Shown in pieces: positions 49,481 to 63,981 of a DNA stretch of 64,000 bases. Position numbers and translations under genes: made by a program. Under the pieces are notes generated by a model, which ran no database searches, had not been told where the DNA came from, and saw only the letters and a program-made list of their open reading frames with translations. The stretch's first letter is position 1, and each line of letters opens with the position of its first letter. The stretch comes from Nocardia seriolae NBRC 15557 (GTDB lineage: Bacteria > Actinomycetota > Actinomycetes > Mycobacteriales > Mycobacteriaceae), in contig NZ_BJWY01000005.1 of the NCBI RefSeq assembly GCF_007990715.1, forward strand, positions 1 through 64,000, given 5' to 3'.

Positions 49481-50677
49481 TCAGTCGTCGAGGGAGCTGC
49501 CGTTGCGGGGACGGGAGGCGGTGCGGGCGCGGCGGCGGGCGGCCTGCAGTTCGGCGAGTTCCTGCTCCAGGGTCTCGGCGATCCGGAACTGGCCGGTGTC
49601 GTAGACATTGAGCGGGGGCACCGGGTCGGTCAGGTCGGCGAGCGGGGAGCGCTCGTCCTCTTCGGCCTTGCGGGTCTTGCCGGTGGCGGAGCGGCGTTCC
49701 TTGTCGGCGGACTTGCCATTGTCCGAATGGGTTTCGGACTTGGTGGCCCGGGTGTCGGGCTCGACCACCCGGGCATCGGCCTCAACGGTCCGCTCGGCCT
49801 CGACCGGGGCCGCGGGCAGGGCGGGGGTCGGGGTGGGCGCCGAGGGCGGCTGCGGGCGGCTGGGCCACGACACTACGGTCGGTGCGGCGCGGCGTAGTTG
49901 TTCGCCCGGATCGGGTAGATCCCGGATCTGGTCGGTGGCCCGCACGATGGCCAGGCCGTACCGTCCGGCCGCGGCATTGTGGATCAGCAGCGCCACACCG
50001 ATCATGACGGGTGCGATGGTGTGCACCGCCACGTCGTACCAGCTGCCCTGCTTGAGATACGGGTAGGTGTTCAGGATGACCGTCAGGCTCAGCAGCGCGA
50101 TCTCGGCGACCACGACCTGCTTGCGGCTGTCGATCACACCCCACTCGGCCACCTTGTTGGTGCCGATCATGATGATCACGAGGCAGACCGAGATCATGCC
50201 TTCGAGCAGGTAACTGAACCAGTAGAGCGGATCGCTCGCACCGCCCGGCGCGATATTGTGCTGCACGTTGACCGCGGACCAGAGCATGCCCGCGGCGACC
50301 ACTCCCGCGAGTGCGCGCTGGCTCCACGCGCGATGTTTGTACAGCGACGCCAGTTTGGCGTGCGGGCTCGATTCTCGCCGCTGCGCGGCGATCGCCTTGC
50401 GGGCGAGCAGCAAGTCGCGAATGTCGGCCTTCTCAATCTCTTCGGTGGTCTGCCGGGCGCGATCGGCGGCATTGGCCGCGGCCTCGGCCTGCTTCCAGCG
50501 TTGAGCCCGCTCCTGCTCGCGAATGCGCTCGGCTAGATCGCGCTCGGCGACCAGTTCGGTCTCCGACAGCGCATCGGTGAGAGCGGGATCGTATTGGTAG
50601 GCCAGCCGACCCCGGGCCTTCTCGACCCGTTGCGCTAGCTGGCTGACCTCGTCCTCGCGCGGATGTTCAATAGTCAT
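49481..50677 (-). CDS. Four-helix membrane protein with long charged tails
   Basis: A 398-aa protein, unrecognised by name. Residues 1-110 are a charged helical, probably coiled-coil region (ETELVAERDLAERIREQERA). Four hydrophobic helices follow between about 118 and 245 (ALAGVVAAGMLWSAVNV; YWFSYLLEGMISVCLVIIMI; VVVAEIALLSLTVILNTYPY; IAPVMIGVALLIHNAAAG). The C-terminal 140 residues are Pro- and charge-rich and disordered. The four-helix layout recalls DUF2637/SpdB-like proteins of actinobacterial integrative elements, but no other mobile-element gene is nearby, so this is only a resemblance. Start ATG at 50677; a longer open frame has no support. Confidence 0.7.
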   Translation of the reverse strand: MTIEHPREDEVSQLAQRVEKARGRLAYQYDPALTDALSETELVAERDLAERIREQERAQRWKQAEAAANAADRARQTTEEIEKADIRDLLLARKAIAAQRRESSPHAKLASLYKHRAWSQRALAGVVAAGMLWSAVNVQHNIAPGGASDPLYWFSYLLEGMISVCLVIIMIGTNKVAEWGVIDSRKQVVVAEIALLSLTVILNTYPYLKQGSWYDVAVHTIAPVMIGVALLIHNAAAGRYGLAIVRATDQIRDLPDPGEQLRRAAPTVVSWPSRPQPPSAPTPTPALPAAPVEAERTVEADARVVEPDTRATKSETHSDNGKSADKERRSATGKTRKAEEDERSPLADLTDPVPPLNVYDTGQFRIAETLEQELAELQAARRRARTASRPRNGSSLDD

Positions 50678-50977: not shown

Positions 50978-52847
50978 GTGCGCATCGGCGACCTCGACCG
51001 AATCATCACCGAAATCGACACCCTGCGAGACGCGCTGGCGGACGCCGAACGGCAATGGGCGGTCCGGATCGCCGGCGTCGACCCGCGCCATCGCGCGGGT
51101 GCGCTGAATCTCGTGCACTACTGGGCGATCCGCCAGTTCGATCTGCGCGGGCTGCAACGGCGGCTGGCCGCGTTCGGACTGTCCTCGCTCGGGCGCAGCC
51201 AGGGGCACGTGGCATCCACGCTGAACGCCATCGGCACGGCGGCGCGGGCGCTGGCGCACTCCGACGATCCGGACCGGTTGCCGCCCAACGGGTACACCGC
51301 CGGGGCGAACGTGCTGCGGCGGCGCACCTTCGAGCTGCTGGGGCCCGCGCCCGCCCGGCGCTCGACCCGCATCATGGTCACCCTGCCCGGAACGGCCGCG
51401 GCCGACCCCCAGCTCATCGCCGATCTCGTCGACCGGGGCATGGACGTCGCCCGGATCAACTGCGCCCACGACGATCCGGCCGCCTGGGCCGCGATGATCA
51501 CCGAACTGCGGCGGGAGGGCCCGCGATCGTGCCGTGTCGCAATGGATCTGGCGGGACCGAAGCTGCGCACCGGCCCGATCGCCCAGGGCCCGCCCGTGGT
51601 GAAGCTGCGCCCGGTGCGCGACGTGCTGGGCCGGGTCACCGAGACGGCGTGGTGCTGGCTCACCCCGATCGATCGGCCTGGCCCGCCGCCGCGCGCGGAC
51701 GTCCCGGTGCTGCCGGTGGACGCCGCCTGGCTGTCGAAGCTGGCCCCCACCTCCACTTTCCGGCTGCAAGACGCCCGCGACGCCAAGCGGTTGTTCACGG
51801 TCGTGCACGCCGACGCCGGGGGCGCGCTGGCCTGTACCGGCCGCACCGCCTACATCCTGGCCGGTACGAAACTGGTCGCCGATACCGGCGTCATCACCGA
51901 GGTCGGCCCGCTGCCCCCGGTCGAGCAGCACCTGGTGCTCTCGCCGGGGGACACGCTGCTGCTGACCCGCGACTGCGTTCCGGCCGAGGTCCCGCCCCGG
52001 GGTCTGCCGCGCATCGGCTGTACGCTGCCGGAGGTCTTCGGCAATGTCCGCCGCCGCCAGCCGATCCTGTTCGACGACGGCAGGATCACCGGCCGGATCC
52101 TGGACTGCGACGCGGACACCATCACGGTCACCATCACCGAGGCCACCGCGCCCGGCAGCAAACTGCGCGCCGGCAAGGGCATCAACCTGCCCGAGACCAC
52201 CCTGCCGGTGCCCGCCCTGACCGAAACCGACCGTGCCAACCTGCCGTTCGTCATCGAGCACGCCGACCTGGTCGAGATGTCGTTCGTGCGCACCCGCCAG
52301 GATGTGAGCGATCTGCTGGCCGCCCTCGACGAGCTCGGCGGCGACGGACTCGGCGTCATCGTGAAAATCGAGACCGCGCAGGGCTTCCGGAACCTGCCCG
52401 CCATCCTGCTCGAGGTGATGCGCCGTCCCCGCGCCGGTGTCATGATCGCGCGCGGCGATCTGGCCGTGGAATGCGGCTACGAGCGCCTGGCCGAGCTCCA
52501 GGAGGAGATTCTGTGGCTGTGCGAGGCGGCCCACCTGCCGGTCATCTGGGCGACCCAGGTGCTCGATCAGCTGGCGCGTTCGGGGCGGCCCTCACGCGCC
52601 GAGATCACCGACGCCGCCATGGGAGTCCGCGCCGAATGCGTCATGCTCAACAAGGGGGCCGTGCATCGTCGACGCGGTCGCCACCCTCGACGACATCCTG
52701 CAGCGCATGAGCGCCCACGCCGACAAGCAGACCACCTTCATGCGCTCTCTGCGGTCCTGGTATCGCGCCGAAACGCCGCAGGCGACCGGTGCTGAGGGCG
52801 GTGGATCGTCGTGTGACGAATCGACGACACCGTCGGCCCCGCAGTAG
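50978..52847 (+). pseudogene. Pyruvate-kinase-like gene with a one-base frameshift
   Basis: Reading through one extra base, the product would be about 622 aa: an N-terminal helical domain (LRDALADAERQWAVRIAGVD then PRHRAGALNLVHYWAIRQFD) followed by a pyruvate-kinase barrel (RIMVTLPGTAAADPQLIADL; RVAMDLAGPKLRTG; GVIVKIETAQGF with the catalytic Lys; VMIARGDLAVECGY; WATQVLDQLARSGRPSRAEI). At 52654-52658 five G residues occur where the protein needs NKGPCIVDAVATLDDIL; with one G fewer the frame continues to TAG at 52845-52847. As read, it ends instead in an Arg-rich nonsense tail at 52795. The start GTG at 50978 is an estimate; the frame is open further up, and 50678-50977 holds nothing else I can support. 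Confidence 0.75.
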
Positions 52848-52882
52848 GTCTCCGGCGGCGTCCGGTGGCCACGCATCGGTGC

Positions 52883-52921
52883 GTCGTCACGCGACGACCG
52901 GGCGCGTCGGCCCCCGGGGGC
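52883..52921. terminator. Palindromic region between PK-like gene and jetC
   Basis: GTCGTC-ACGC-GACGAC (52883-52898) can form a 6-bp hairpin, and GCCCCCGGGGGC (52910-52921) is a perfect 12-base palindrome. They fill most of the 85-bp gap between the convergent stops at 52847 and 52933. No remnant of another gene is visible in this gap. Confidence 0.35.
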
Positions 52922-52932
52922 GGATTCGGTTG

Positions 52933-55900
52933 TCAGCCCACCGTTTCGAGTTCCTCGTCGAGCGGGATCGCGCCTTCGAGGCCGTGCGGGAGACGGCGGC
53001 GGTTGGGGGAGCCGAGGGCGGTGGTGAGATCGGAGCCGTCGTGCTCGGCGAGCAGATCGTCGGAGTCCCAGACGAGCAGGGTTGCGCTGACGGTGTTCTC
53101 GGCCGCCGAGTGGGCCAGATCGTAGTGGGCGCAGGCCGGGACGTGGGGGTAGGTGATCCAGAGGTCGTAGCCGGTCATGAACAGGTCCAGGTCGAATTGC
53201 ACGGAGAGACCGAGCAGTTCGCTGCGGCCGTTGTCGTCGACACCGGCGAAGGCCTCGTCCAGGGCCAGCAGGCGGGGCGCCTGCGGGTCGGCCGAGTCGA
53301 GCATGACGTGGGCCGCGGCGAACAGCGGCAGGTGCAGTGAGACCGACTGTTCGCCGCCGGACAGGGCGCTGTGGCGGGCCACGGTGAGGCGGTCCTCGGT
53401 GCCGTCGGCGGTGAGGATGGTGAACGAGAAGATGCGCCAGGCGCGGTAATCCAGGGTGGCGGCCAGGATCTCGGGAAAGGAGCGTTCCGGGTGCGCGGTG
53501 CGGGCGGTGCGGATCTCGGCGGCGAAGTAGGCGCGGATGGTGGACAGGTCCTCGGGTGTGAGGTCGGCGGAGTCGCGGTCGAGGAGCTTGCAGACCGCGC
53601 GGGCCGGTTCGGAGAGGTTGTCGGCCAGCACCCAGTGCACGCCGATGGTGTTGCCCGAGGACATGCGCCGCTGCTTCATCTCGGTGCCCATGCGGGAGAT
53701 GAGATCGCGGGCGTCGGAGGTGCGTTCGTGGATCTGCTGGGCCAGGCCGGTGAGCAGCGCGTCCTCCAGGATGCGGCGCTCGGCGTCGGTGAGCAGCAGT
53801 TCCTGGTCGCGGCGCGCGCCGCCGATGCGCTCGGCGAAATCGGCCAGCGCGGACAGGCCGTGATCGTCGTGCACCTGGACCACGGTGAGGCCGTCGGCGG
53901 CATCCCAGTGCAGCCGGTAGTCCTGGCGGGCGGCGGTGAGCGCCGCGTCGAATTCCTGCAGGGCGGTGGTGACCGCGCTGCGGGTGGCCTTGCGCGCCGC
54001 CTCACCGGCGCGCACCGAAGCCGTTGCGGTGGCGAGGGTTTCGAACAGGGCCGACACCTCGTCGGGCAGCACCTTCGGCGCCTGCTCCGGGTCGCCGTTC
54101 TCGATCCGGTACAGCAGCTGCTCGGGCGTCGGCCAGGCGGCATCGCTGCTGGGCCAGCGGATCTCGGCGGGCGCGCCCAGCAGGCTCAGCAGGTCCGGGC
54201 GCGCGTAGGGCGCCAGATGCCGGACGTCGGCGAGCAATTCGGTCAGCGCGGTGCCCAGCGTGTCGTGTGCGGCCCGATGCGCGCCCTCGGCGGTACCGAC
54301 GGCCTCGATGGCCTCCGCGGCCGCCTTGCGGGCCGCCTTCTGCTCGGCGCGGGCCGCGTCGATCTTCTCCCGGGCCGCCTCGAGCTCCCGATCGATATCG
54401 GCCGCACCGGCTCCCAGCGCGTCGCGCAGCGTCTCCAGCTTGCGCAACTGCTCCTGATACCCGCTGCGCGCGGCCTCGGCCTCCTCGGCGAACGCCTCGG
54501 CCAGATCCTTGGACTCCTCGAGCCGATCCCCGGCCTCCCGCGCCCGCTCGTGCTCACGCTGATGATCCCCGCGCAGGCGCAGCAGCGCGGTCCCCGCGTT
54601 CTCGAAATGCCTTACGGCAGCGGCCAACGCGTCCAGTTCGGCCGGATCCCGCGGCGCCTTGTGATCGGCCGCGATGGCCCGGACCTTCTTGTCCGCCGCG
54701 GAGTATTCCGCCACCGCCTGATCCAGATCCCGCTCCGCCTGCCCGGCGGCCTCGGCCCGCGAGCGCAGCATGCCCGCCGCCTCGGCGACGCCCCGCAGCG
54801 CCGCGGTGACCGCGGTGGTGCGCGGAAGCGCCTTGGCGGCGGCCGAAATCCGGCCCAGTTCGTCGGTGGCGGCCTGTTCGGCGGCCGCGGCGATCTCGGC
54901 CTCGGTCACGGCCGCCTCGATCGCAGCGGCCAGCTCGGCCAGGCGCAGCTCGCGTCGCCGGGCACGCGCGGTGGTGCCGATGAACTCCGCGTCCGCCTTG
55001 ACGTGACGGCCGACCTGAACCCCCTGCCGGAAGCGGCCGTCGGCGCCTATGGCGACACCGCCGCCGGACGCGACCGGTTGGGCCGCCGCACCGGAAACCC
55101 GCTGTGCGGAACCGCTCCCGGGCGCGGGGTCGTCCTTGCCGGAGGCCCGCTTGCCGTCGGCCGCGTCGGATTCGTGCAGGGCGATCGAGGCCAGGACGTC
55201 GGCCACGGTCTGTCGTGGCACGGTCAGTGAATCGGTGTCGTCCTCGACCACGAGGACGTCGGCGAGCGTGCGCCCGGAGGGCCGCTCTCCCGGCGGCAGC
55301 GGCACCAGGAATTGATCGGAGGCGTGCTCGGGCAGTTCCTCGCCGGGGCACACCCACGCGTCGAGCAGGTTCGCGGCCTGCAGGGCCGCCTCGATCCCCG
55401 CCGCCCGCGCCGGGGGGACGGCATCGGCGAAACGGACCAGACGCCACAGGGGCGCGCCCGGGCGGTCCGGCCGGATATCGGTGCGGGCCGCGAAACCGGC
55501 TGGCGCGTCGTCGCGTTCGGCCGCGACCGACTCCCGCTCGGCGCGCAGCTCACCCGCCCGGGTGGTGGCCTGCGCGGCGCGCGCACGCGCCTCCTGCCGC
55601 CGTGCGCGGATCTCGTCGGTCAGCGGTTCGGTGCGCTCGGCGAGGACCTCCGCCGGTGTGGCGGGAGCGGTGTCGTCGTCGAGGGCGATGGCCAGCGCTG
55701 CCCTCGCCTCGGCGGCTTCCAACGCCGCGCCGCCCGCGCCCGTTGTGGCGGAACGATTTCCGGCCGCCTCGCCGGACGCGGTACCGCGCCCCTTCTTCGC
55801 CTTGCCGCCGGAGGTGGCGTCCCGGGGAGGGGCCTGCTCGGTGCCGACCATGGCGAGCGCATCGTCGATGGCCTCGAACAGGCCGGTCCGGATGGGGGAG

Positions 55901-57396
55901 TAGACCTCTCGGTGCGTGTCCCACCAGTCACGCAGGGACACAGCGGTATTCGATCGGGCGAGCGCGACTCCGGCTTCGGCCGCGGCCAATTCGGCGGCCG
56001 CGGACTCGCGCGCCTCCACGGCACGCTGGGCGGCGCGTTCGGCGCGGGTGCGTTCGGTGACGGCCTGGTCGACCAGGGTCAGGGCGCGGCGGACGGCGCG
56101 GACGTCGGCGTCACGTTCCTCGGCGTGGGAGCGGACGGTGGTGGTGAGATTGTCGGCGCGGGCGGACTCGGGCAGCGTCGTCCACGGGATGCCCGCTTCC
56201 TCGGCGGCGGAACGCAATTCGTCCTCGCCACGGGCCAGGGCCGACGATGCGTTCGTCACGGCGGCCTGGGCGCGTTCGGATTCCTCGAGACGCTGATCGA
56301 CGGTCTGGCGCGACTTCAACGCCTTGTCGTTGTGGACGGCGGCGGAGGTCTCCAGACGGCGGACCGCGTCGGCGAGGTCGTCGAGCTGCTGTTTGCCCTC
56401 GTAGGCGCTGGAGCGCTGCAGGGTCTCGCGGTCGGCGAGGGCCTGCTCGTAGGCGCGGTCGGCGTCCTCGGCGCGGGTCTCGGCGGCGGCGCGCTCGGTG
56501 TCGCGGCGGCGGCGCAGCGCGGCGGCCGCGTGCAGGGCGGTGCCGGAGTGGGTGACCGCGTCCAGGCGGGTGCGCACCTGGTCGATATCCGTCTTCGCCT
56601 GCACGGCAAGGTATTTGTGGTAGACCTTGACGAAATCGCGGGTGGCGGTGTCGGCCTGGATCAGGCCCTCGAGGGTGCGGCCGACCTCCTCCATATCGCT
56701 GAAGGAGCGGGCGGCGTCGAGGATCAGCTGCTCGTCGAGCGGGCGCAGGCCGTCGGTGAGGGCCTGGGACAGTCCGCGCGGGTCGAGGTTCTTGGCCAGC
56801 TGTGGGCGGCGCAGCGTCAGAATGAGATTGATCAGCTGGTCGTAGCGCTGCTGACCGAGGCCGAACATGCGGGCGTCGATGGCATTGCGGTACTCGACCG
56901 GCCGGTCCACGATGGCGTCGGAGCCGATCTGCTCGGCCAGCTGCTTGCGGGTCAGCGGCCGGTCGTCGGGGCCCAGCAGCGAGAAGTCCACGCCCACCCG
57001 GCCGTCGGCCACGAAATACCAGCGGGTCACCTTGTCGTTTGAGCGGGTGGCGCGCATGCCGATGCCGATGGTCACCGTCTCCGGGGAGTCCCAGCTGCCG
57101 CGCGCGAACTCCATCCACACGTAGGAGTAGGCCGATTCCTGCTTGCGGTAGAGCAGGTTCGACTTCATGGTGCGTTCCTCACCCGCGAACGGGTTGAGCC
57201 GGCGCGGCTCGATCCGGCCGTCGAGCACGAACGGGAACAGCACCTCGAGGGCCTTGGTCTTGCCCGAGCCATTGGGCCCGCGCAGCACCAGGCGGCCGTC
57301 GGCGAAGCAGAACTCCTGGTCGCGGTAGTCCCACAGGTTGATGATGCCCGCCCGGGTGGGGACGAAGCGCACTCCACCGTGAATGTGGTCGGCCAT
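52933..57396 (-). CDS. jetC: Wadjet JetC-like SMC ATPase (TIGR02680 family)
   Basis: A 1487-aa SMC/MukB-like motor. The Walker A loop GPNGSGKT is at residues 40-47, with FVPTRAGIINLWDYRDQEFC before it. Long heptad-rich, Ala/Glu/Arg coiled-coil arms fill most of the middle, interrupted by a hinge-like globular region near residues 640-800 (RLVRFADAVPPARAAGIEAA). The C-terminal head carries the ABC signature ALSGGEQSVSLHLP (about 1345) and Walker B RLLALDEAFAGVDDNGRSEL (about 1380). Length and motifs match the TIGR02680 family. In Wadjet systems JetC, with JetA and JetB, extrudes plasmid loops. The ATG overlaps the jetB stop (TGATG). A longer open frame upstream lies inside jetB and was rejected. 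Confidence 0.88.
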   Translation of the reverse strand: MADHIHGGVRFVPTRAGIINLWDYRDQEFCFADGRLVLRGPNGSGKTKALEVLFPFVLDGRIEPRRLNPFAGEERTMKSNLLYRKQESAYSYVWMEFARGSWDSPETVTIGIGMRATRSNDKVTRWYFVADGRVGVDFSLLGPDDRPLTRKQLAEQIGSDAIVDRPVEYRNAIDARMFGLGQQRYDQLINLILTLRRPQLAKNLDPRGLSQALTDGLRPLDEQLILDAARSFSDMEEVGRTLEGLIQADTATRDFVKVYHKYLAVQAKTDIDQVRTRLDAVTHSGTALHAAAALRRRRDTERAAAETRAEDADRAYEQALADRETLQRSSAYEGKQQLDDLADAVRRLETSAAVHNDKALKSRQTVDQRLEESERAQAAVTNASSALARGEDELRSAAEEAGIPWTTLPESARADNLTTTVRSHAEERDADVRAVRRALTLVDQAVTERTRAERAAQRAVEARESAAAELAAAEAGVALARSNTAVSLRDWWDTHREVYSPIRTGLFEAIDDALAMVGTEQAPPRDATSGGKAKKGRGTASGEAAGNRSATTGAGGAALEAAEARAALAIALDDDTAPATPAEVLAERTEPLTDEIRARRQEARARAAQATTRAGELRAERESVAAERDDAPAGFAARTDIRPDRPGAPLWRLVRFADAVPPARAAGIEAALQAANLLDAWVCPGEELPEHASDQFLVPLPPGERPSGRTLADVLVVEDDTDSLTVPRQTVADVLASIALHESDAADGKRASGKDDPAPGSGSAQRVSGAAAQPVASGGGVAIGADGRFRQGVQVGRHVKADAEFIGTTARARRRELRLAELAAAIEAAVTEAEIAAAAEQAATDELGRISAAAKALPRTTAVTAALRGVAEAAGMLRSRAEAAGQAERDLDQAVAEYSAADKKVRAIAADHKAPRDPAELDALAAAVRHFENAGTALLRLRGDHQREHERAREAGDRLEESKDLAEAFAEEAEAARSGYQEQLRKLETLRDALGAGAADIDRELEAAREKIDAARAEQKAARKAAAEAIEAVGTAEGAHRAAHDTLGTALTELLADVRHLAPYARPDLLSLLGAPAEIRWPSSDAAWPTPEQLLYRIENGDPEQAPKVLPDEVSALFETLATATASVRAGEAARKATRSAVTTALQEFDAALTAARQDYRLHWDAADGLTVVQVHDDHGLSALADFAERIGGARRDQELLLTDAERRILEDALLTGLAQQIHERTSDARDLISRMGTEMKQRRMSSGNTIGVHWVLADNLSEPARAVCKLLDRDSADLTPEDLSTIRAYFAAEIRTARTAHPERSFPEILAATLDYRAWRIFSFTILTADGTEDRLTVARHSALSGGEQSVSLHLPLFAAAHVMLDSADPQAPRLLALDEAFAGVDDNGRSELLGLSVQFDLDLFMTGYDLWITYPHVPACAHYDLAHSAAENTVSATLLVWDSDDLLAEHDGSDLTTALGSPNRRRLPHGLEGAIPLDEELETVG

Positions 57397-58835
57397 CAGT
57401 GCCCGGATCCCTTCTGTGTGGAGCTGTCCGCGTCGTTGTGCGCGGGAGAGTTGGTTTGCGCGTGAGAGTCGAGTTGCGTTGGGGAGAGGAACAATTCGGA
57501 TTCCGCACGGGTGCGGATGGTGACGATCGCACCCCGGTAGCGGGCCAGCGCGGGCAGGATGAGCAGCCCGCCGTCGACGAGCTCGACCAGGCGCAGCCGC
57601 TCGAGCAGGGACACCACCTCGGCGGTCAGGCCGGGGACGTCGGCCTGCCACTGGGCGGCGAAGGTGTTGCCGTAGCGGCCGGTCAGCATCTGCACGGTGT
57701 CGCGGATCCAGGACGATTCGACGAACGGGAAATCCGGGATCTCGGGTTCCTCGGCGTCCTCTTCCGAATCCTCGTGCGCGCCGAAGACATCCACGGGATC
57801 GGCCAGCGGGGCGAAGACGGTCGTCACCGGGATGGCGGTGTCGAGCTGCTCGGCCAGATCGGTGAACGGACGGTCAGGGCGGGGCCTGCGCTGCACCGGA
57901 TTGTCGAGATCCAGCACCAGATCGGCGATCTCGCCCGCGAGCAGCAGCGCCACCTGCGCGAGCGTGCCGGTGCCCGGGAAGCGGACATCGGAGAGCCGCC
58001 CCGAACTGTCGATCAGCGCAACGCCTTCCGCGCGCCGCTCGGCCCGCAGGCCGGTCAGATACTCGACCTCGGTGACCAGTTTCTCCTGCGCCAGCAGTGA
58101 CCGCTCGGGTTCGGTGAGCTCGTCGGCGTAGACGACCGGCTGCTCCACCAGGGCCCGGCGCACCTTCCGCGCCGCCAGAGCCATTGCGGGAGAACGAGTA
58201 TCGGAGCCACCGGCCTCCTCGCCCAGCAACCCGGTGACACTCTGCAGGTGCTGCAGCGCCCGCGGCGGCCGGAACAGCGCGAACACCACCGACCGGTCGA
58301 TGTCGTAGAGCGCCTCACCGGCCTCGGGATCACTGGCCCAGCCCCCGGCGTCACCGTCGGCGAGGGTGACCGCGCCGCGCGCCGCCAGCCAGCCGACCGC
58401 GTCCACGAACGCATCCCGATCCGCGGCCCGATCCGGCGCGAGCTCCAGCCCGTCCACCCGCTCGGTATACGCCGCCACCTGATCGGCCAACTCCGACAGG
58501 GTGATCTGATCCCCGGCCCGCCCCAACGCGGCCAGCGCCAACGCCAGATAGGAGTAACGCCGTCGATCGAACAGCCGGTCGCCCGTGGTTCGTGCGGGCC
58601 GCCCGCCATCGAGCCGATCCAGCACCGGGAACAACCGCGCCGTCGTCTCGGTCACCTCCAGCCGATACCCGAACAGCTCGGCCGGGTCCTCCCGCAACTC
58701 CGTCGCCCACCGCCGAAGCAGCGGCAGCGCAATCCGATCCGGATAAGTCCGCGTCACCAGATGGTTGGCAAGGATCACCCGCGCCGCGCGCTGATAACTG
58801 TCCAACGCCAGCGAATCGATACTCCGCGCATGCAT
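57396..58835 (-). CDS. jetB: Wadjet JetB-like subunit (TIGR02678 / DUF2398 family)
   Basis: A 479-aa protein matching the second gene of the four-gene TIGR02677-TIGR02680 neighbourhood. It starts LALDSYQRAARVILANHLVT then RTYPDRIALPLLRRWATELR, with REDPAELFGYRLEVTETTAR shortly after. A middle winged-helix-like region contains LFRPPRALQHLQSVTGLL. It corresponds to MukE/JetB, the winged-helix subunit bridging the kleisin and the SMC heads. Both ends overlap neighbours by single TGATG junctions (jetA stop/jetB start, jetB stop/jetC start), showing a tightly coupled operon. Acidic insert near residue 350 (AHEDSEEDAEEPEIP). Confidence 0.85.
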   Translation of the reverse strand: MHARSIDSLALDSYQRAARVILANHLVTRTYPDRIALPLLRRWATELREDPAELFGYRLEVTETTARLFPVLDRLDGGRPARTTGDRLFDRRRYSYLALALAALGRAGDQITLSELADQVAAYTERVDGLELAPDRAADRDAFVDAVGWLAARGAVTLADGDAGGWASDPEAGEALYDIDRSVVFALFRPPRALQHLQSVTGLLGEEAGGSDTRSPAMALAARKVRRALVEQPVVYADELTEPERSLLAQEKLVTEVEYLTGLRAERRAEGVALIDSSGRLSDVRFPGTGTLAQVALLLAGEIADLVLDLDNPVQRRPRPDRPFTDLAEQLDTAIPVTTVFAPLADPVDVFGAHEDSEEDAEEPEIPDFPFVESSWIRDTVQMLTGRYGNTFAAQWQADVPGLTAEVVSLLERLRLVELVDGGLLILPALARYRGAIVTIRTRAESELFLSPTQLDSHAQTNSPAHNDADSSTQKGSGH

Positions 58836-60631
58836 CAGCCCACCTCCCCGCCGCTGCGAGGATCTCCACCGGTGCTGCCGGGATCGCCACTGCCGCTGTC
58901 GATGTGGGTCCCCGCGTCGCTGCCGTGCTCGCTGTCACTGCCGTCGGTGACGTCGTGTGCCGACGGCGTGGGTGGAACCTGCCGGGTGGCAGACGATTCC
59001 GGCGCGCCATCGGCCTGGCGTGAGGTCGGCTCCTCGATGGTGGCGGTCGTCGGTTCCGGTACGCCGCGACCTGCGCGCGCACCGGACCCGCGTGCCCGCA
59101 GCGAGGCGGTCTCGCGCACTTCCAGGCGTCGATTGTTCAGGTGCAGTACGCCTTTGGAGGTGCGGACCAGGGTCGAACCGGTGTGTTCGGACACCGTCAG
59201 CGTGACGCCGTTGTCCGAGCCGGATGTGCCGGGTACGCGGCCGCTGACCGGGACCCACGCGGTGGAGGCGGCGTCGAGAAGCTTGAGCAGGACCTCGGTT
59301 TCGCCCTCGTCGAGCTCGCGGTCGTAGAGGTCGGCGGAGGCGAGGGAGCGGGCCGCTTCGGCGCGGGCGCGCTGGGCGTCGAGCTGGACCTGACGCAGGC
59401 GGCGGATGCCCGCGTCATTGCGTTGCAGGCGGGCGGGCGCGCCCGGCGTGGGCGGGCGGCCGGTTTCGGCGAGGGTGCGCGCTATCTCCAAAGGCGGTGC
59501 GTCCCACAAGGATCGGATGGCGGGGATGACATCGGCGTCCGGATGGTACATGGACAGGTGGCGGGGGCGGCCGAGGCCGAAGACGGCGTCGTAGAGGGCG
59601 TGGGCGGCCTCGGCGGTGGGGGCGGCGGTGAACCAGCCCGCGAGATGGCGCAGCGCGGATTCGCGGCTGACGCCGCCCTTGCGGGTCTCGGTGACACGGC
59701 GCAGCAGCGACAGCACGGCGGCGATGGCGCTCATGGTGGCCTCGCGCAGGCGCTCGCATTCGGTGAGCCCGCCCTCGTCGTCGCCGATGAACCAGGCCCG
59801 CAAACCCTGCCAGCGGGACCGCCAATCGGCTTGGCGCTCATCGGTATTCAGCAGCACGCGCTCGTCGCAGCGCGCCGCCCGCTCGATGAGGTCCTCGACG
59901 CCGGTGGCCTCGACCTCGCGGATGGCGGTGGCCAGGCGCGGCGCGAAACGAGCCAGATCCATGGAGAATTCGCGCATGTGCGCCAGCAGCGCGTCCTTGT
60001 GCGCGAGGAAGGCTTCGGGGGTGGCCTCGGTGGTGCGCACCAGATCGCCGAGGGTGAGGTAGAAGTGGGCGGCGCGCTCGGCCAGGTCCGAGAGCGCCCG
60101 GTCCAGGCGGTTGAGCACCCGGTACACCCGGGGCGCGTCGGCGCTCTTGTTGGCCTCGGCCAGGGTGTGCAGATCGGCCAGCAGCTCCGGCAGGACGAGA
60201 CGCGACAGGGATGCCTCGTCGAGCCGCGCGTCGAGGACCTCCGAAACCGCCCGATATGCCTGATATCCCGCCTGCGAGAACTGATAGACGAAGTGCCGGT
60301 TCCGATATTCGGCCAGCGTGGCCGCCCGCGTCCCGTCGTAACTGCGCTCCAGCACTCCCCACTGGTGCAACTGCTCGAGCAGCGGCCCGACCTCGGTCGC
60401 GGTCAGCGCGGGCGCACCCGGGCAACGATTGAGCGTGTCGGCGACATCGGAGGCGTGCAGCAGCACCACGTACGCGGCGCGGGCGGTGTCGAAGGCCCGC
60501 AACACCCACAGGTAGTCGGCCCGTTTCTCGGCGGTGGCGAAGGAGAACAAGCGCAGCCGGTCGGCATGTGGAAACTCCTCGGACCCGACCCCCCTCGGGT
60601 CGGGCAGCAATCCATCAGCGGACTCGGTCAC
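58835..60631 (-). CDS. jetA: Wadjet JetA-like kleisin (TIGR02677 / DUF2397 family)
   Basis: A 598-aa protein matching the first gene of the same neighbourhood. It begins RLRLFSFATAEKRADYLWVL then RAFDTARAAYVVLLHASDVA, with a winged-helix region LLEQLHQWGVLERSYDGTRA, helical middle parts (DARLDEASLSRLVLPELLAD) and ETRKGGVSRESALRHLAGWF. It corresponds to the MukF-like kleisin JetA. The last 75 residues are a disordered Ser/Gly/Asp tail. GTG start without a ribosome site. A TACTAA element 10 bases upstream suggests a short-leader or leaderless transcript. It is the first gene of jetA-jetB-jetC; no jetD (TIGR02679 / DUF2399 Toprim nuclease) follows jetC or precedes jetA. Confidence 0.85.
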   Translation of the reverse strand: MTESADGLLPDPRGVGSEEFPHADRLRLFSFATAEKRADYLWVLRAFDTARAAYVVLLHASDVADTLNRCPGAPALTATEVGPLLEQLHQWGVLERSYDGTRAATLAEYRNRHFVYQFSQAGYQAYRAVSEVLDARLDEASLSRLVLPELLADLHTLAEANKSADAPRVYRVLNRLDRALSDLAERAAHFYLTLGDLVRTTEATPEAFLAHKDALLAHMREFSMDLARFAPRLATAIREVEATGVEDLIERAARCDERVLLNTDERQADWRSRWQGLRAWFIGDDEGGLTECERLREATMSAIAAVLSLLRRVTETRKGGVSRESALRHLAGWFTAAPTAEAAHALYDAVFGLGRPRHLSMYHPDADVIPAIRSLWDAPPLEIARTLAETGRPPTPGAPARLQRNDAGIRRLRQVQLDAQRARAEAARSLASADLYDRELDEGETEVLLKLLDAASTAWVPVSGRVPGTSGSDNGVTLTVSEHTGSTLVRTSKGVLHLNNRRLEVRETASLRARGSGARAGRGVPEPTTATIEEPTSRQADGAPESSATRQVPPTPSAHDVTDGSDSEHGSDAGTHIDSGSGDPGSTGGDPRSGGEVG

Positions 60632-60981: not shown

Positions 60982-61116
60982 ATGGTACGGGACGGGGAGG
61001 GGCCGCCGTCGGGAATTGCGGGCGAATGCCCGCAGTTCGACAACACCACCTACCAGGAGGATGCCGACCGCGGCTTCCTCGCCGAGCCGGTGCACGGATT
61101 CAGTTCGCGCGGGTGA
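60982..61116 (+). pseudogene. Short coding remnant, possibly from an alkylsulfatase
   Basis: A 44-codon plus-strand frame ending CPQFDNTTYQEDADRGFLAE then PVHGFSSRG. The E-D-A-D-R-G-F-L-A-E part resembles the segment DFADTDKGFIAELEPD near the N-terminus of the alkylsulfatase gene at the end of this window. It is cut off at both sides: unrelated sequence precedes it, and it runs into the 3' end of the TetR gene in antisense. Similarity is short, so the origin is tentative. Confidence 0.3.
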
Positions 61117-61693
61117 GCATCGCGGTCAGGGCCTGGCGTACGGCGTCGGAGGCGGCGCGTTTGGACAGTCCGCGCCGGTCCATGAGGTGGTGGCGGTAGG
61201 GCCAGCCGACGGTGGCGTCGACGAGATCCAGCAGCCGCGCGCTCTCGGCGCGGTCCAGTTCCGGCGCGAAGACGCGGGCCAGGGCGTCGCGAATCCGCTT
61301 GTCGGTCAATCGCATCCGGGTGTCCACCGCGGGCGTGCGCAACGATTCGATCAGGCCCAGCACCCGGGGTTCGCGTTGCAGGGTGAAGATCGCCTCGCCC
61401 TGGCGCACCACCGCGTCGATGCGCTGGGCCAGCGGCAGTCCCGGATCGACGTCGGCGATGAGCGCCTCGACCTGCTCGGACTGCAGGTCCACCGCGGCGG
61501 TGAGCAATGCCGTGCGGGTGGGGAAGTGCACGAAGATACTGCGCTCGGACACCCCGGCGCGTTCGGCGATGCCGCGGGTGGTGGGGTCGAACTCACCGTC
61601 GTGCACCGCTGCCAGCAGGCCCTCGATGATCGCCTTGCGAGTCTGTTCCGGATTGCGCCGCCGCCGTGGGCTGTCGCCTTTGCTCTCGCTCAT
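61100..61693 (-). CDS. TetR-family regulator divergent from alkylsulfatase
   Basis: A 197-aa TetR-type repressor. The helix-turn-helix reads TRGIAERAGVSERSIFVHFP (about residues 39-58), after a basic N-terminus (SPRRRRNPEQTRKAIIEGLL). The C-terminal helices form the ligand domain. The ATG at 61693 is preceded by AAAGG inside a 20-bp tandem duplication; the upstream copy makes a 7-codon leader frame whose stop overlaps this ATG. It is transcribed away from the alkylsulfatase gene, and palindromes in the 212-bp intergenic region are candidate operators, so it probably controls that gene. Confidence 0.88.
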   Translation of the reverse strand: MSESKGDSPRRRRNPEQTRKAIIEGLLAAVHDGEFDPTTRGIAERAGVSERSIFVHFPTRTALLTAAVDLQSEQVEALIADVDPGLPLAQRIDAVVRQGEAIFTLQREPRVLGLIESLRTPAVDTRMRLTDKRIRDALARVFAPELDRAESARLLDLVDATVGWPYRHHLMDRRGLSKRAASDAVRQALTAMLTRAN

Positions 61694-61905: not shown

Positions 61906-63981
61906 ATGACCGAGGAAGTCCTCACGAACAACGGTGACGACGGCAAGCCCGGCGGGTTCCGCGTGTCCCGGCGCGGGGTGTTCGGGGCGGGCGCGGCGGC
62001 GCTGGTGGCGGCGGGCGTGGGCGCGGCTGTCTCGGGGTGCGGCGGCAAGGCCGACAACGGCTCGGCCGCGGAGAAGACCGCCAAGGACGCGGTCGACCCC
62101 AGCGGTCACATTGTCGATCAGCAGAAGCAGGCGCAGTCCTCGCTGCCCTTCGCCGACCGGCAGGACTTCGCCGACACCGACAAGGGCTTCATCGCCGAGC
62201 TCGAGCCCGACCTGGTCAAGGACGCCAAGGGAAATACGGTCTGGGACAACGAGTCCTACGGCTTCATCCAGGGCAACTGCCCCAACTCGGTGCATCCCTC
62301 GCTGTGGCGGCAGTCGCAGCTGGTGGTGAAACAGGGCCTCTACGAGGTGGTTCCGGGCATCTACCAGATCCGCGGCCTGGATCTGTCGAATATGACCATC
62401 ATCGAGGGCAAGTCCGGCGTGATCGTCATCGACCCGCTGATCTCCACGGAGACCGCCAAGGCGGGCATGGACCTGTACTTCGCGCACCGTGGCCGGAAGC
62501 CGGTGACGGGCATGATCTACACCCACTCCCACGTCGACCACTTCGGCGGCGCCATGGGCGTCATCACCCTGGAAGATGCTGTCTCCGGCCGCATTCCGGT
62601 GATCGCGCCGCAGGGCTTCATGGAGCACGCCGTGGCCGAGAACATCTTCGCCGGCACCGCCATGGCGCGCCGCTCAGCCTACATGTACGGCGCGGCGCTC
62701 CCGCGCGGCGAGAAGGGGCAGGTCGGTGCGGGTCTGGGCATGACCACCTCGATCGGCACCGTCAGCCTGATTCCGCCGAACAAGGACGTCACCCACACCG
62801 GCCAGGAAGAGGTGGTCGACGGTGTGCACGTGCAGTTCCAGATCACCCCGGGCACCGAGGCCCCGTCGGAGATGAACTTCTACTTTCCCGACTTCCGCGC
62901 GATGTGCATGGCGGAGAACGCTACTCACACCCTGCACAACCTGCTCACCCTGCGTGGCGCGCTGGTGCGTGACGCGCACGTGTGGTCGCAGTACCTCACC
63001 GAGACGATCAATATGTTCGCCGACATCTCCGATGTCGCCTTCGCCTCGCACCACTGGCCCACCTGGGGCTCGGACCAGCTCACCGAATGGCTGTCGCTGC
63101 AACGCGATACGTATGCCTACCTGCACGACCAGACCCTGCGCATGCTCAACCAGGGCTACACCGGCATCGAGATCGCGGAAATGATCCAGCTGCCACCGGC
63201 CGTCGAGCAGAAGTGGTACAACCACGGGTATTACGGCTCGGTCAGCCACGACGTCAAGGCCGTCTACCAGCGCTACATGGGCTGGTTCGACGGCAACCCG
63301 GCCCACCTGTGGGAGCACCCGCCGGTCGACTCCGGCAAGCGCCACGTGGACGCCATGGGCGGCGCGAGCGGTGTGCTGAAGGTGGCCCGCAAGGCCTACT
63401 CCGACGGCGACTACCGCTGGTGCGTGCAGGTTCTCAACTATCTGATCTTCGCCGACCCGGACAACGAGAAGGCGAAGATGCTGCAGGCCAGCGCCTTCGA
63501 ACAGCTCGCCTACGGCTCGGAGAACGCCACCTGGCGCAACTTCTTCCTCTCCGGCGCCTACGAACTGCGCAACGGCAACTTCGGCACGCCCACCAAGGCC
63601 AGCTCGGTCGGCATGATCAGCGCCCTGAGCGTGGACCAGGTATTCGACTCTGCGGCCTTCCTGGTCAACGGCCCCAAGGCGTGGGACCTGCACCTGGTCA
63701 ATGACTGGATCATTACCGACCAGAATCAGACCTACCGCACCGAGCTGCGCAACGGCGTGCTCATCCACTACGTGGTTCCCGCCGATTTCAAGGGCCCGGC
63801 CCCGGATGCCACCTTCACCCTGTCGCGGCTCGAGCTGATCGCCACCATGACCGGGGCCAAGGACATCGTGAAGGAGATCCAGGCCGGAAACATCAAGGTC
63901 AGCGGCGATCCGGCCAAGCTGAAGCAGCTGAAGGATGTCATGGAGAAGCCGGACCCCAACTTCAATATCGTCACCCCCTGA
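61906..63981 (+). CDS. Tat-exported alkyl/aryl sulfatase (MBL fold, SdsA1-like)
   Basis: A 691-aa type III alkylsulfatase, which hydrolyses long-chain alkyl sulfates such as dodecyl sulfate. The N-terminus has a Tat signal (RVSRRGVFGAGAAALVAAGV) ending in VSGCGG, which may also be a lipobox, so a lipoprotein is possible. The family start is LPFADRQDFADTDKGFIAEL and SYGFIQGNCPNSVHPSLWRQ. The binuclear zinc motif MIYTHSHVDHFGG is near residues 203-215, with MCMAENATHTLHNLLTLRGA and FASHHWPTWGS supplying further ligands. A dimerisation domain and a C-terminal SCP2-like domain (LIHYVVPADFKGPAPDATFT then LSRLELI) follow. The ATG has GGAGAG upstream. It is divergent from a TetR gene. Confidence 0.93.
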   Translation: MTEEVLTNNGDDGKPGGFRVSRRGVFGAGAAALVAAGVGAAVSGCGGKADNGSAAEKTAKDAVDPSGHIVDQQKQAQSSLPFADRQDFADTDKGFIAELEPDLVKDAKGNTVWDNESYGFIQGNCPNSVHPSLWRQSQLVVKQGLYEVVPGIYQIRGLDLSNMTIIEGKSGVIVIDPLISTETAKAGMDLYFAHRGRKPVTGMIYTHSHVDHFGGAMGVITLEDAVSGRIPVIAPQGFMEHAVAENIFAGTAMARRSAYMYGAALPRGEKGQVGAGLGMTTSIGTVSLIPPNKDVTHTGQEEVVDGVHVQFQITPGTEAPSEMNFYFPDFRAMCMAENATHTLHNLLTLRGALVRDAHVWSQYLTETINMFADISDVAFASHHWPTWGSDQLTEWLSLQRDTYAYLHDQTLRMLNQGYTGIEIAEMIQLPPAVEQKWYNHGYYGSVSHDVKAVYQRYMGWFDGNPAHLWEHPPVDSGKRHVDAMGGASGVLKVARKAYSDGDYRWCVQVLNYLIFADPDNEKAKMLQASAFEQLAYGSENATWRNFFLSGAYELRNGNFGTPTKASSVGMISALSVDQVFDSAAFLVNGPKAWDLHLVNDWIITDQNQTYRTELRNGVLIHYVVPADFKGPAPDATFTLSRLELIATMTGAKDIVKEIQAGNIKVSGDPAKLKQLKDVMEKPDPNFNIVTP

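Follow-up and report, generated by a model that had tools for sequence, protein, structure and literature searches.

The 64,000-nucleotide stretch of Nocardia seriolae NBRC 15557 DNA analyzed here (contig NZ_BJWY01000005.1, positions 1 to 64,000; hereafter the window) carries, between positions 52,933 and 60,631, an intact jetA-jetB-jetC operon of type II Wadjet that lacks jetD, the gene for the Toprim nuclease of this anti-plasmid system. By comparison of sequences across the family, the operon is a genus-wide and wider, putatively nuclease-free form of type II Wadjet. We read its product as the JetABC motor of a type II Wadjet that would have lost JetD by deletion in a Nocardia ancestor and would now act as a noncutting loop extruder, most likely in accessory organization of the chromosome or of another replicon, and we hold this reading with a little more confidence than doubt.

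The operon in the window and its missing nuclease gene

All three genes lie on the minus strand. jetA (58835..60631) encodes a 598-residue kleisin-type subunit of the DUF2397/TIGR02677 family, jetB (57396..58835) a 479-residue subunit of the DUF2398/TIGR02678 family, and jetC (52933..57396) a 1,487-residue structural maintenance of chromosomes (SMC)-type ATPase of the TIGR02680 family; by family membership, JetA would be the kleisin and JetB the KITE protein. The initial annotation of this DNA had named the genes from these same three NCBIfam families, and each protein scores above the curated cutoff (JetA, 242.5 bits against 165.85; JetB, 148.2 against 124.65; JetC, 702.3 against 462.85). In Pfam, JetA matches DUF2397 at 478 bits and JetB matches DUF2398 at 232 bits. 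The best PADLOC models for the three proteins are JetA2, JetB2, and JetC2, with JetC2 scoring 1,437 bits over nearly the full length of JetC compared to 30 bits for JetC1. The TGATG overlaps that had been described at the jetA/jetB and jetB/jetC junctions were read directly in the sequence at both; a longer jetC frame that reaches 57651 (1,572 aa) is an upstream extension, and jetC begins at 57396, where its start codon overlaps the stop of jetB. The Walker A, signature, and Walker B motifs of JetC are intact (GPNGSGKT, LSGGEQS, and LxLDEAFAG(V/I)D). A search for assignments of these proteins to other families, or for a jetD just outside the arrangement, turned up neither.

Among structures, PDB entries 9qe0 and 9qe1 contain a related JetC (9qe0_A, E 2e-67) and JetA (9qe0_E, E 1.5e-17), and JetB has no credible match among PDB chains (best E 0.24). 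AlphaFold models of JetA and JetB are of low overall confidence (mean predicted local distance difference test [pLDDT] scores of 58 and 54), and in the low-confidence JetA model residues ~510 to 598 are predicted to be disordered (pLDDT <50). JetA bears a tail of ~80 residues in the window. JetC is 1,449 to 1,602 aa long in the intact copies of the window's Nocardia subclade compared to 1,385 to 1,420 aa in family members that have jetD, and the extra length in the subclade apparently comes from low-complexity inserts.

The absence of jetD from the locus, also claimed by the initial annotation, holds across the genome as far as this operon is concerned. The whole-genome search for DUF2399 and TIGR02679 that had been proposed finds one JetD in this 7.6-Mb draft (284 contigs, completeness 100), and this sole DUF2399 match lies on another contig, C171, in a separate operon. 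The C171 operon (L002:494-8702) is complete: all four type II Wadjet genes are present, arranged jetD-jetA-jetB-jetC, and each of the four proteins scores above its NCBIfam cutoff. Its JetC is 30 to 36% identical to the JetC of the window. The two operons are alike in being type II by NCBIfam models; they differ in that the C171 operon has jetD and places it first, whereas the jetD-containing relatives of the window operon have the order A-B-C-D. DUF3322, the other JetD-type domain, is not present in this genome and occurs in 19 of 148 Nocardia genomes.

We considered that a divergent JetD might have been missed by Pfam, and none was found at the locus with a clade-specific JetD profile, which was built from 19 JetDs of the window's clade plus the outgroup and run on six-frame translations. 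The profile recovers six of six positive controls and detects the distant C171 JetD at E 2e-75. In 59 loci that have no jetD beside the operon (L049 and L070 break off inside jetC), it finds nothing credible after jetC, the best domain having an independent E value of 0.55 and lying upstream of jetC. Among 80 named loci, the only match besides chance-level ones is at the Rhodococcus sp. G-MC3 locus (E 3e-186), the chance-level ones coming from two Nocardia loci (E 0.13 and 0.35). The end of jetC plus at least 1.5 kb beyond it is covered in 60 of the 80 loci; the other 20 mostly break off within jetC or close to it. In L111 and L151, two of the named Nocardia loci, jetC is matched only up to about residue 522 although the locus continues for 8.4 kb, which reflects either a break or a search artifact. 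An assembly artifact or contig break was rejected as the cause of the absence, given that genes lie on both sides of the operon within the 64-kb window and that the same state is seen in single-contig relatives (e.g., G040, G042, G043, and G120). The place that jetD takes in jetD-containing relatives corresponds in the window to the gap after jetC (52796..52932), in which no JetD remnant was detected; the gap measures 137 bp, and the 85 bp given earlier is incorrect.

Distribution and history of the jetD-less operon

A JetB match is present in 129 of 148 Nocardia genomes. Seven with only distant matches were set aside (G021, G050, G088, G097, G110, G122, and G125), and 122 hold a jetB orthologue, three of them in pieces or in part (G027, G028, and G146). 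The initial annotation had called for a comparison of the same locus in related Nocardia, and here DUF2399 lies near the orthologue in 0 of 122 genomes, the closest on the same contig being ~0.48 Mb away (G132; lists compared by eye). Some orthologues have a contig edge close by in the direction of jetC (e.g., G138, G133, G070, and G068), and these four genomes have no DUF2399 at all. The genus as a whole does contain the domain: at an E-value limit of 0.001, DUF2399 is matched in 52 of the 148 genomes, in 48 of them above the family cutoff. As an internal control, all 25 distant jetB copies (33 to 40% identity) among the matches listed have DUF2399 within ~7 kb on the same contig.

These counts bear on whether a nuclease could be supplied in trans, either by the JetD of another Wadjet, by a DUF3322-type JetD, or by some other nuclease. 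This genome does encode one complete JetD on C171, a DUF2399 match is found elsewhere in the genome in 42 of the 122 orthologue-bearing Nocardia, and an unrelated nuclease could lie beyond the reach of profile searches. However, in 80 of the 122 the whole genome gives no match to DUF2399, DUF3322 is as scarce as noted above, and the C171 JetD belongs to an operon with only a distantly related JetC. No replacement nuclease was seen as a constant neighbor of the operon, some of the neighbors having been searched against families, and the flanks change between lineages. We regard a nuclease in trans as quite unlikely. The earlier suggestion that jetD simply sits elsewhere is likewise unsupported, given the separate, complete operon on C171 and the 80 genomes without DUF2399.

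In a family sample of 251 genomes, 105 have a JetB match, which is distant only in nine and an orthologue in 96. Of these 96, 18 have DUF2399 at a distance of ~5 kb from jetB, toward jetC (by genus code, 14 in g6, two in g23, and one each in g27 and g16); the remaining 78 have no DUF2399 nearby, some being cut by contig ends (the G173 contig ends inside jetC). Farther out, an order-level draw of 298 yielded nine genomes with JetB at 48 to 52% identity, all nine of which have DUF2399; it stands beside jetC in eight, and in the ninth (G529) the contig ends inside jetC. The operon occupies a chromosomal neighborhood (metH, PAC2, and mshC) common to many genera: among 60 loci compared, a metH-type gene neighbors it in 20, PAC2 in 24, mshC in 26, and DUF3090 in 13, with neighbor clusters named from one representative each. 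In the jetD-containing loci that were read, jetD follows jetC. It lies between jetC and mshC in L026 (g6) and L030 (g23), and jetC and mshC are adjacent without jetD in L034 and L047. Plasmid records include no close relative; the 13 records found are all below 60% identity (12 Streptomyces and one Cupriavidus).

A JetABC tree of 2,325 JetA, JetB, and JetC columns was built from 73 of 78 loci, the other five, L010 among them, being left out because a gene was broken, truncated, or unmatched. Its 56 jetD-less and 17 jetD-containing rows are interleaved, and all six outgroup rows have jetD. The state of jetD changes at least 7 times on this tree, and the starred branches force seven; a hand count for a history of losses only gives ~18. 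In the JetD tree, the ingroup forms one clade (100/100) with the f4 JetD as sister and recovers the same g6 and g23 groups as the JetABC tree. JetD similarity correlates with JetABC similarity (Spearman 0.90 over 136 pairs and 0.92 over 55 ingroup pairs, which are not independent). Close pairs show the same site in both states. G283, which has jetD, and G366, which does not, share ~91% identical DNA to 9 bases past jetC, and the match resumes at about the end of jetD, leaving a clean jetD-sized gap between the matching flanks; in the pair G284/G337, ~4.5 kb of other DNA in G337 (L079) takes the place that jetD has in G284. The changes on the tree, the tracking of JetABC by JetD, and the presence of jetD in distant relatives together argue that jetD was probably inherited with jetABC and then lost repeatedly without a detectable remnant, with jetABC under purifying selection. 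The initial annotation had offered a lost jetD and a nuclease-free complex among its options, and the family-wide comparison supports both.

An alternative history, which concerns evolution and not function, is that the family ancestor was already jetD-less and that jetD was gained several times. The fewest-changes count of 7 favors gains over the ~18 losses of a loss-only history, and the L031 and L032 JetDs are oddly placed. Several findings pull away from our reading in the same direction. L031 and L032 pair on long branches in the JetD tree, a tree constrained to group L032 with the g6 rows is worse by 14 log units (approximately unbiased [AU] test, p 0.046; p 0.109 when L032, g6, and g23 are held together), and there may have been a separate gain of jetD at L031/L032. 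In addition, none of the 59 loci without an adjacent jetD holds a jetD fossil, so the deletion is inferred from the pattern. Against repeated gain, DUF2399 occurs in every one of the nine next-nearest genomes, the ingroup JetDs form a single clade beside f4 and track JetABC, and jetD takes the same position after jetC in the jetD-containing loci read. We consider repeated gain unlikely.

A second, more distant type II lineage appears to hold jetD-less jetABC as well, from a less close examination. In the family sample, 28 genomes carry distant jetB copies, and by eye DUF2399 stands beside the copy in eight and not in 20 (15 in g27, four in g14, and one in g18). Ten of the 20 were examined (L166 to L175, from g27 and g14), with L176 and L177 as controls that have DUF2399. 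In L166 to L175, jetA, jetB, and jetC are present and no match to the JetD profile is better than E 0.78, compared to E 5e-60 and 1e-59 in the two control loci. TIGR02679 finds nothing in the genomes of L166 to L175; among the 16 genomes searched with it, it was found only in N. seriolae and in G376, in the latter below the cutoff, so this model alone is not very sensitive. The L167 locus is flanked by a thiolase gene, an acyl-CoA ligase gene, and malQ, and other g27 loci are similar in gene size and order. The ratio of nonsynonymous to synonymous substitution rates (dN/dS) of jetC in this lineage is 0.16 to 0.20 among close pairs. The L166 jetC stands apart, with a dN/dS of 0.39 to 0.46 against other g27 copies and near 1 against g14 at saturated distance, and its called jetC gene gave no Walker A match with the motif pattern used here.

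Constraint on the motor subunits and the flanking genes

Exact JetC Walker A, signature, and Walker B motifs occur in all 73 rows of the tree set, from which L010 and four other rows had been left out. By Nei-Gojobori counting, dN/dS for jetA, jetB, and jetC is 0.06 to 0.32 in 11 jetD-less pairs, 0.04 to 0.29 in four jetD-containing pairs (0.07 to 0.33 for jetD itself), and 0.05 to 0.19 in two mixed pairs. Sites that are invariant in the 17 jetD-containing rows are kept in jetD-less rows at 96.9% in JetA, 97.2% in JetB, and 98.1% in JetC. This conservation bears directly on the idea that the operon is a decaying Wadjet remnant on its way out. Decay would fit the loss of the nuclease, the lack of the orthologue in 26 of 148 Nocardia, its presence only in pieces in three of 122, and the frame-broken jetC of L010; set against them are the exact motifs in 73 of 73 aligned rows, the low dN/dS of the jetD-less pairs, and a jetD-less form that is common to the whole genus and several others. 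The conservation data largely refute decay, which we consider very improbable.

Of the sites invariant in jetD-containing rows, 8 of 165 in JetA, 2 of 120 in JetB, and 6 of 369 in JetC are kept in fewer than 80% of jetD-less rows. Five of the eight JetA sites fall within residues 121 to 139 (permutation p 0.00075, uncorrected for phylogeny). JetA Glu130, Asp139, and Lys172 are invariant in 17 of 17 jetD-containing rows, down to ~50% identity, while all 20 Nocardia rows carry other residues in place of Glu130 and Lys172, and 19 of the 20 have Glu in place of Asp139. In a branch-based count, JetA 121 to 145 ranked first within JetA (p 0.005 before correction); a JetC stretch at ~621 to 654 scored more strongly than this patch (p 1e-7, from overdispersed counts). 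JetA 121 to 172 is thus a possible candidate for the docking site of JetD. It is a lead and not a demonstration, since the Nocardia changes are mostly shared by descent; contrary to what docking would suggest, the 36 jetD-less rows outside Nocardia keep Glu130 in 33, Asp139 in 32, and Lys172 in 32, so that most of the change traces to a single event in Nocardia. A bolder account would join these results: type II Wadjet would have been converted repeatedly, within one family and in two distant JetABC lineages, from a plasmid cutter to a nuclease-free loop extruder that is now near-core in Nocardia, and in Nocardia the loss would have been followed by erosion of the charged JetA patch (Glu130, Asp139, and Lys172), which would mark where JetD docks. 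We offer this account tentatively and would sooner expect it to fail than to hold in full.

The flanks of the window operon are rearranged and hold none of the metH, PAC2, mshC, and DUF3090 neighbors common elsewhere. The pyruvate-kinase-like gene that the initial annotation had placed after jetC is confirmed as a PRK14725-type gene (50978..52795, plus strand; 713 bits against a cutoff of 642); it is convergent with jetC and not part of the operon, its start codon is uncertain, and its cluster has one further member among the 60 loci compared (L007). Farther downstream on the strand of jetC, a gene at 49481..50677 (minus strand) encodes a 398-residue protein that is kept in all nine loci of the window's Nocardia subclade (the window and L006 to L013), in some with an intervening gene. 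Searched against Pfam, NCBIfam, and PHROG, the window copy gives no match better than E 0.5; by eye, its N terminus looks coiled-coil-like, and it has membrane stretches. A class I fumarase gene lies downstream in the window and also near other Nocardia copies. Upstream of jetA, where only gene scraps had been described, are a gene for a TetR-family regulator (61100..61693, minus strand) and an alkyl-sulfatase gene (61906..63981, plus strand).

A proposed noncutting role and its relation to known systems

The job of the operon is probably a form of DNA handling that would need no cutting, and the label of anti-plasmid operon given to it earlier is not supported, given that the known mechanism needs JetD to cut. 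JetABC senses the size and shape of DNA circles, presumably via loop extrusion, and JetD cuts (PMC10586767). We propose that the Toprim nuclease gene jetD was deleted from a type II Wadjet in the ancestor of Nocardia and that the JetABC complex would still bind and hydrolyze ATP, load on DNA, and extrude loops, with the extruded DNA staying uncut. With the cutter gone, extrusion of the chromosome would be free of risk, and JetABC could act on the chromosome or on a large replicon beside Smc-ScpAB; ScpA is encoded separately from the operon in this genome. The likeliest task would be accessory organization of the chromosome or replicon, parallel to that of MksBEF in Pseudomonas and reached independently from type II Wadjet.

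A different possibility is that the complex still handles plasmids, by compaction, silencing, or copy number control, with JetABC fully extruding and holding small circles. Conservation of the motor subunits is close to that in jetD-containing relatives, small circles are recognized through JetABC in this family of systems (PMC10586767), and the loss of MksB raises plasmid copy number in Corynebacterium glutamicum (PMC10123090), all of which would fit such a role. However, deleting the nuclease gene mksG, or mksF, affects the plasmid in C. glutamicum much like the deletion of mksB (PMC10123090), so that cutting appears to be needed there, and the chromosomal core-gene neighborhood common across genera is unlike that of a mobile defense module. 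Plasmid handling is, in our judgment, unlikely.

Other points tell against a noncutting role on the chromosome or a large replicon. The sequence, as analyzed here, offers no choice between chromosome and plasmid as the substrate. The orthologue is missing from 26 of 148 Nocardia genomes, so the operon is dispensable, and in L010 (G071) jetC is spread over three reading frames, as a pseudogene or through sequencing errors. According to PMC10586767, no JetABCD is documented to extrude loops on the chromosome, and the MksB of C. glutamicum, a JetC homologue from a system with a nuclease, is without effect on chromosome organization (PMC10123090).

If a noncutting role is correct, surveys that score a defense system from JetABC without JetD could overestimate how common anti-plasmid immunity is in Nocardia and its relatives. 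Wadjet has been counted in 42% of Actinobacteria genomes, with JetD not named in the available text (PMC10482375). The literature searched, with most subscription papers lying outside its scope, yielded no description of a type II clade that lacks jetD, and an earlier report may exist. The close species pairs with and without jetD at the same site and with near-identical flanks make the JetD-loss step directly testable.

The operon bears on how defense SMC and chromosome SMC complexes are related, a question for which MksBEF is the known nuclease-free precedent. The window operon agrees with type II Wadjet in its JetA, JetB, and JetC families, in the A-B-C order of jetD-containing relatives, and in its ATPase motifs; type II Wadjet differs in having JetD, which cuts DNA and is the defining subunit of anti-plasmid Wadjet, whereas JetD is absent from the window locus and, in most Nocardia with the orthologue, from the whole genome. 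MksBEF of Pseudomonas, which is placed on the type I side, is like the window operon a three-subunit SMC complex without a nuclease. The window operon does not fall on that side by PADLOC models (1,437 bits for JetC2 against 30 for JetC1); its proteins match type II models, and the apparent losses of jetD number several within one bacterial family. A chromosome role is reported for MksBEF (PMC10586767), whereas for the window operon such a role is only proposed here, and MksBEF has itself been proposed to have arisen from Wadjet by JetD loss, in an origin that the same paper calls unresolved (PMC10586767). MksBEFG of C. glutamicum and EptABCD of Mycobacterium smegmatis resemble the window operon as actinobacterial SMC-type complexes, which in their case control plasmids; unlike the window operon, both are described with a nuclease subunit (PMC10123090 and PMC10586767), and the C. 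glutamicum system is called type I.

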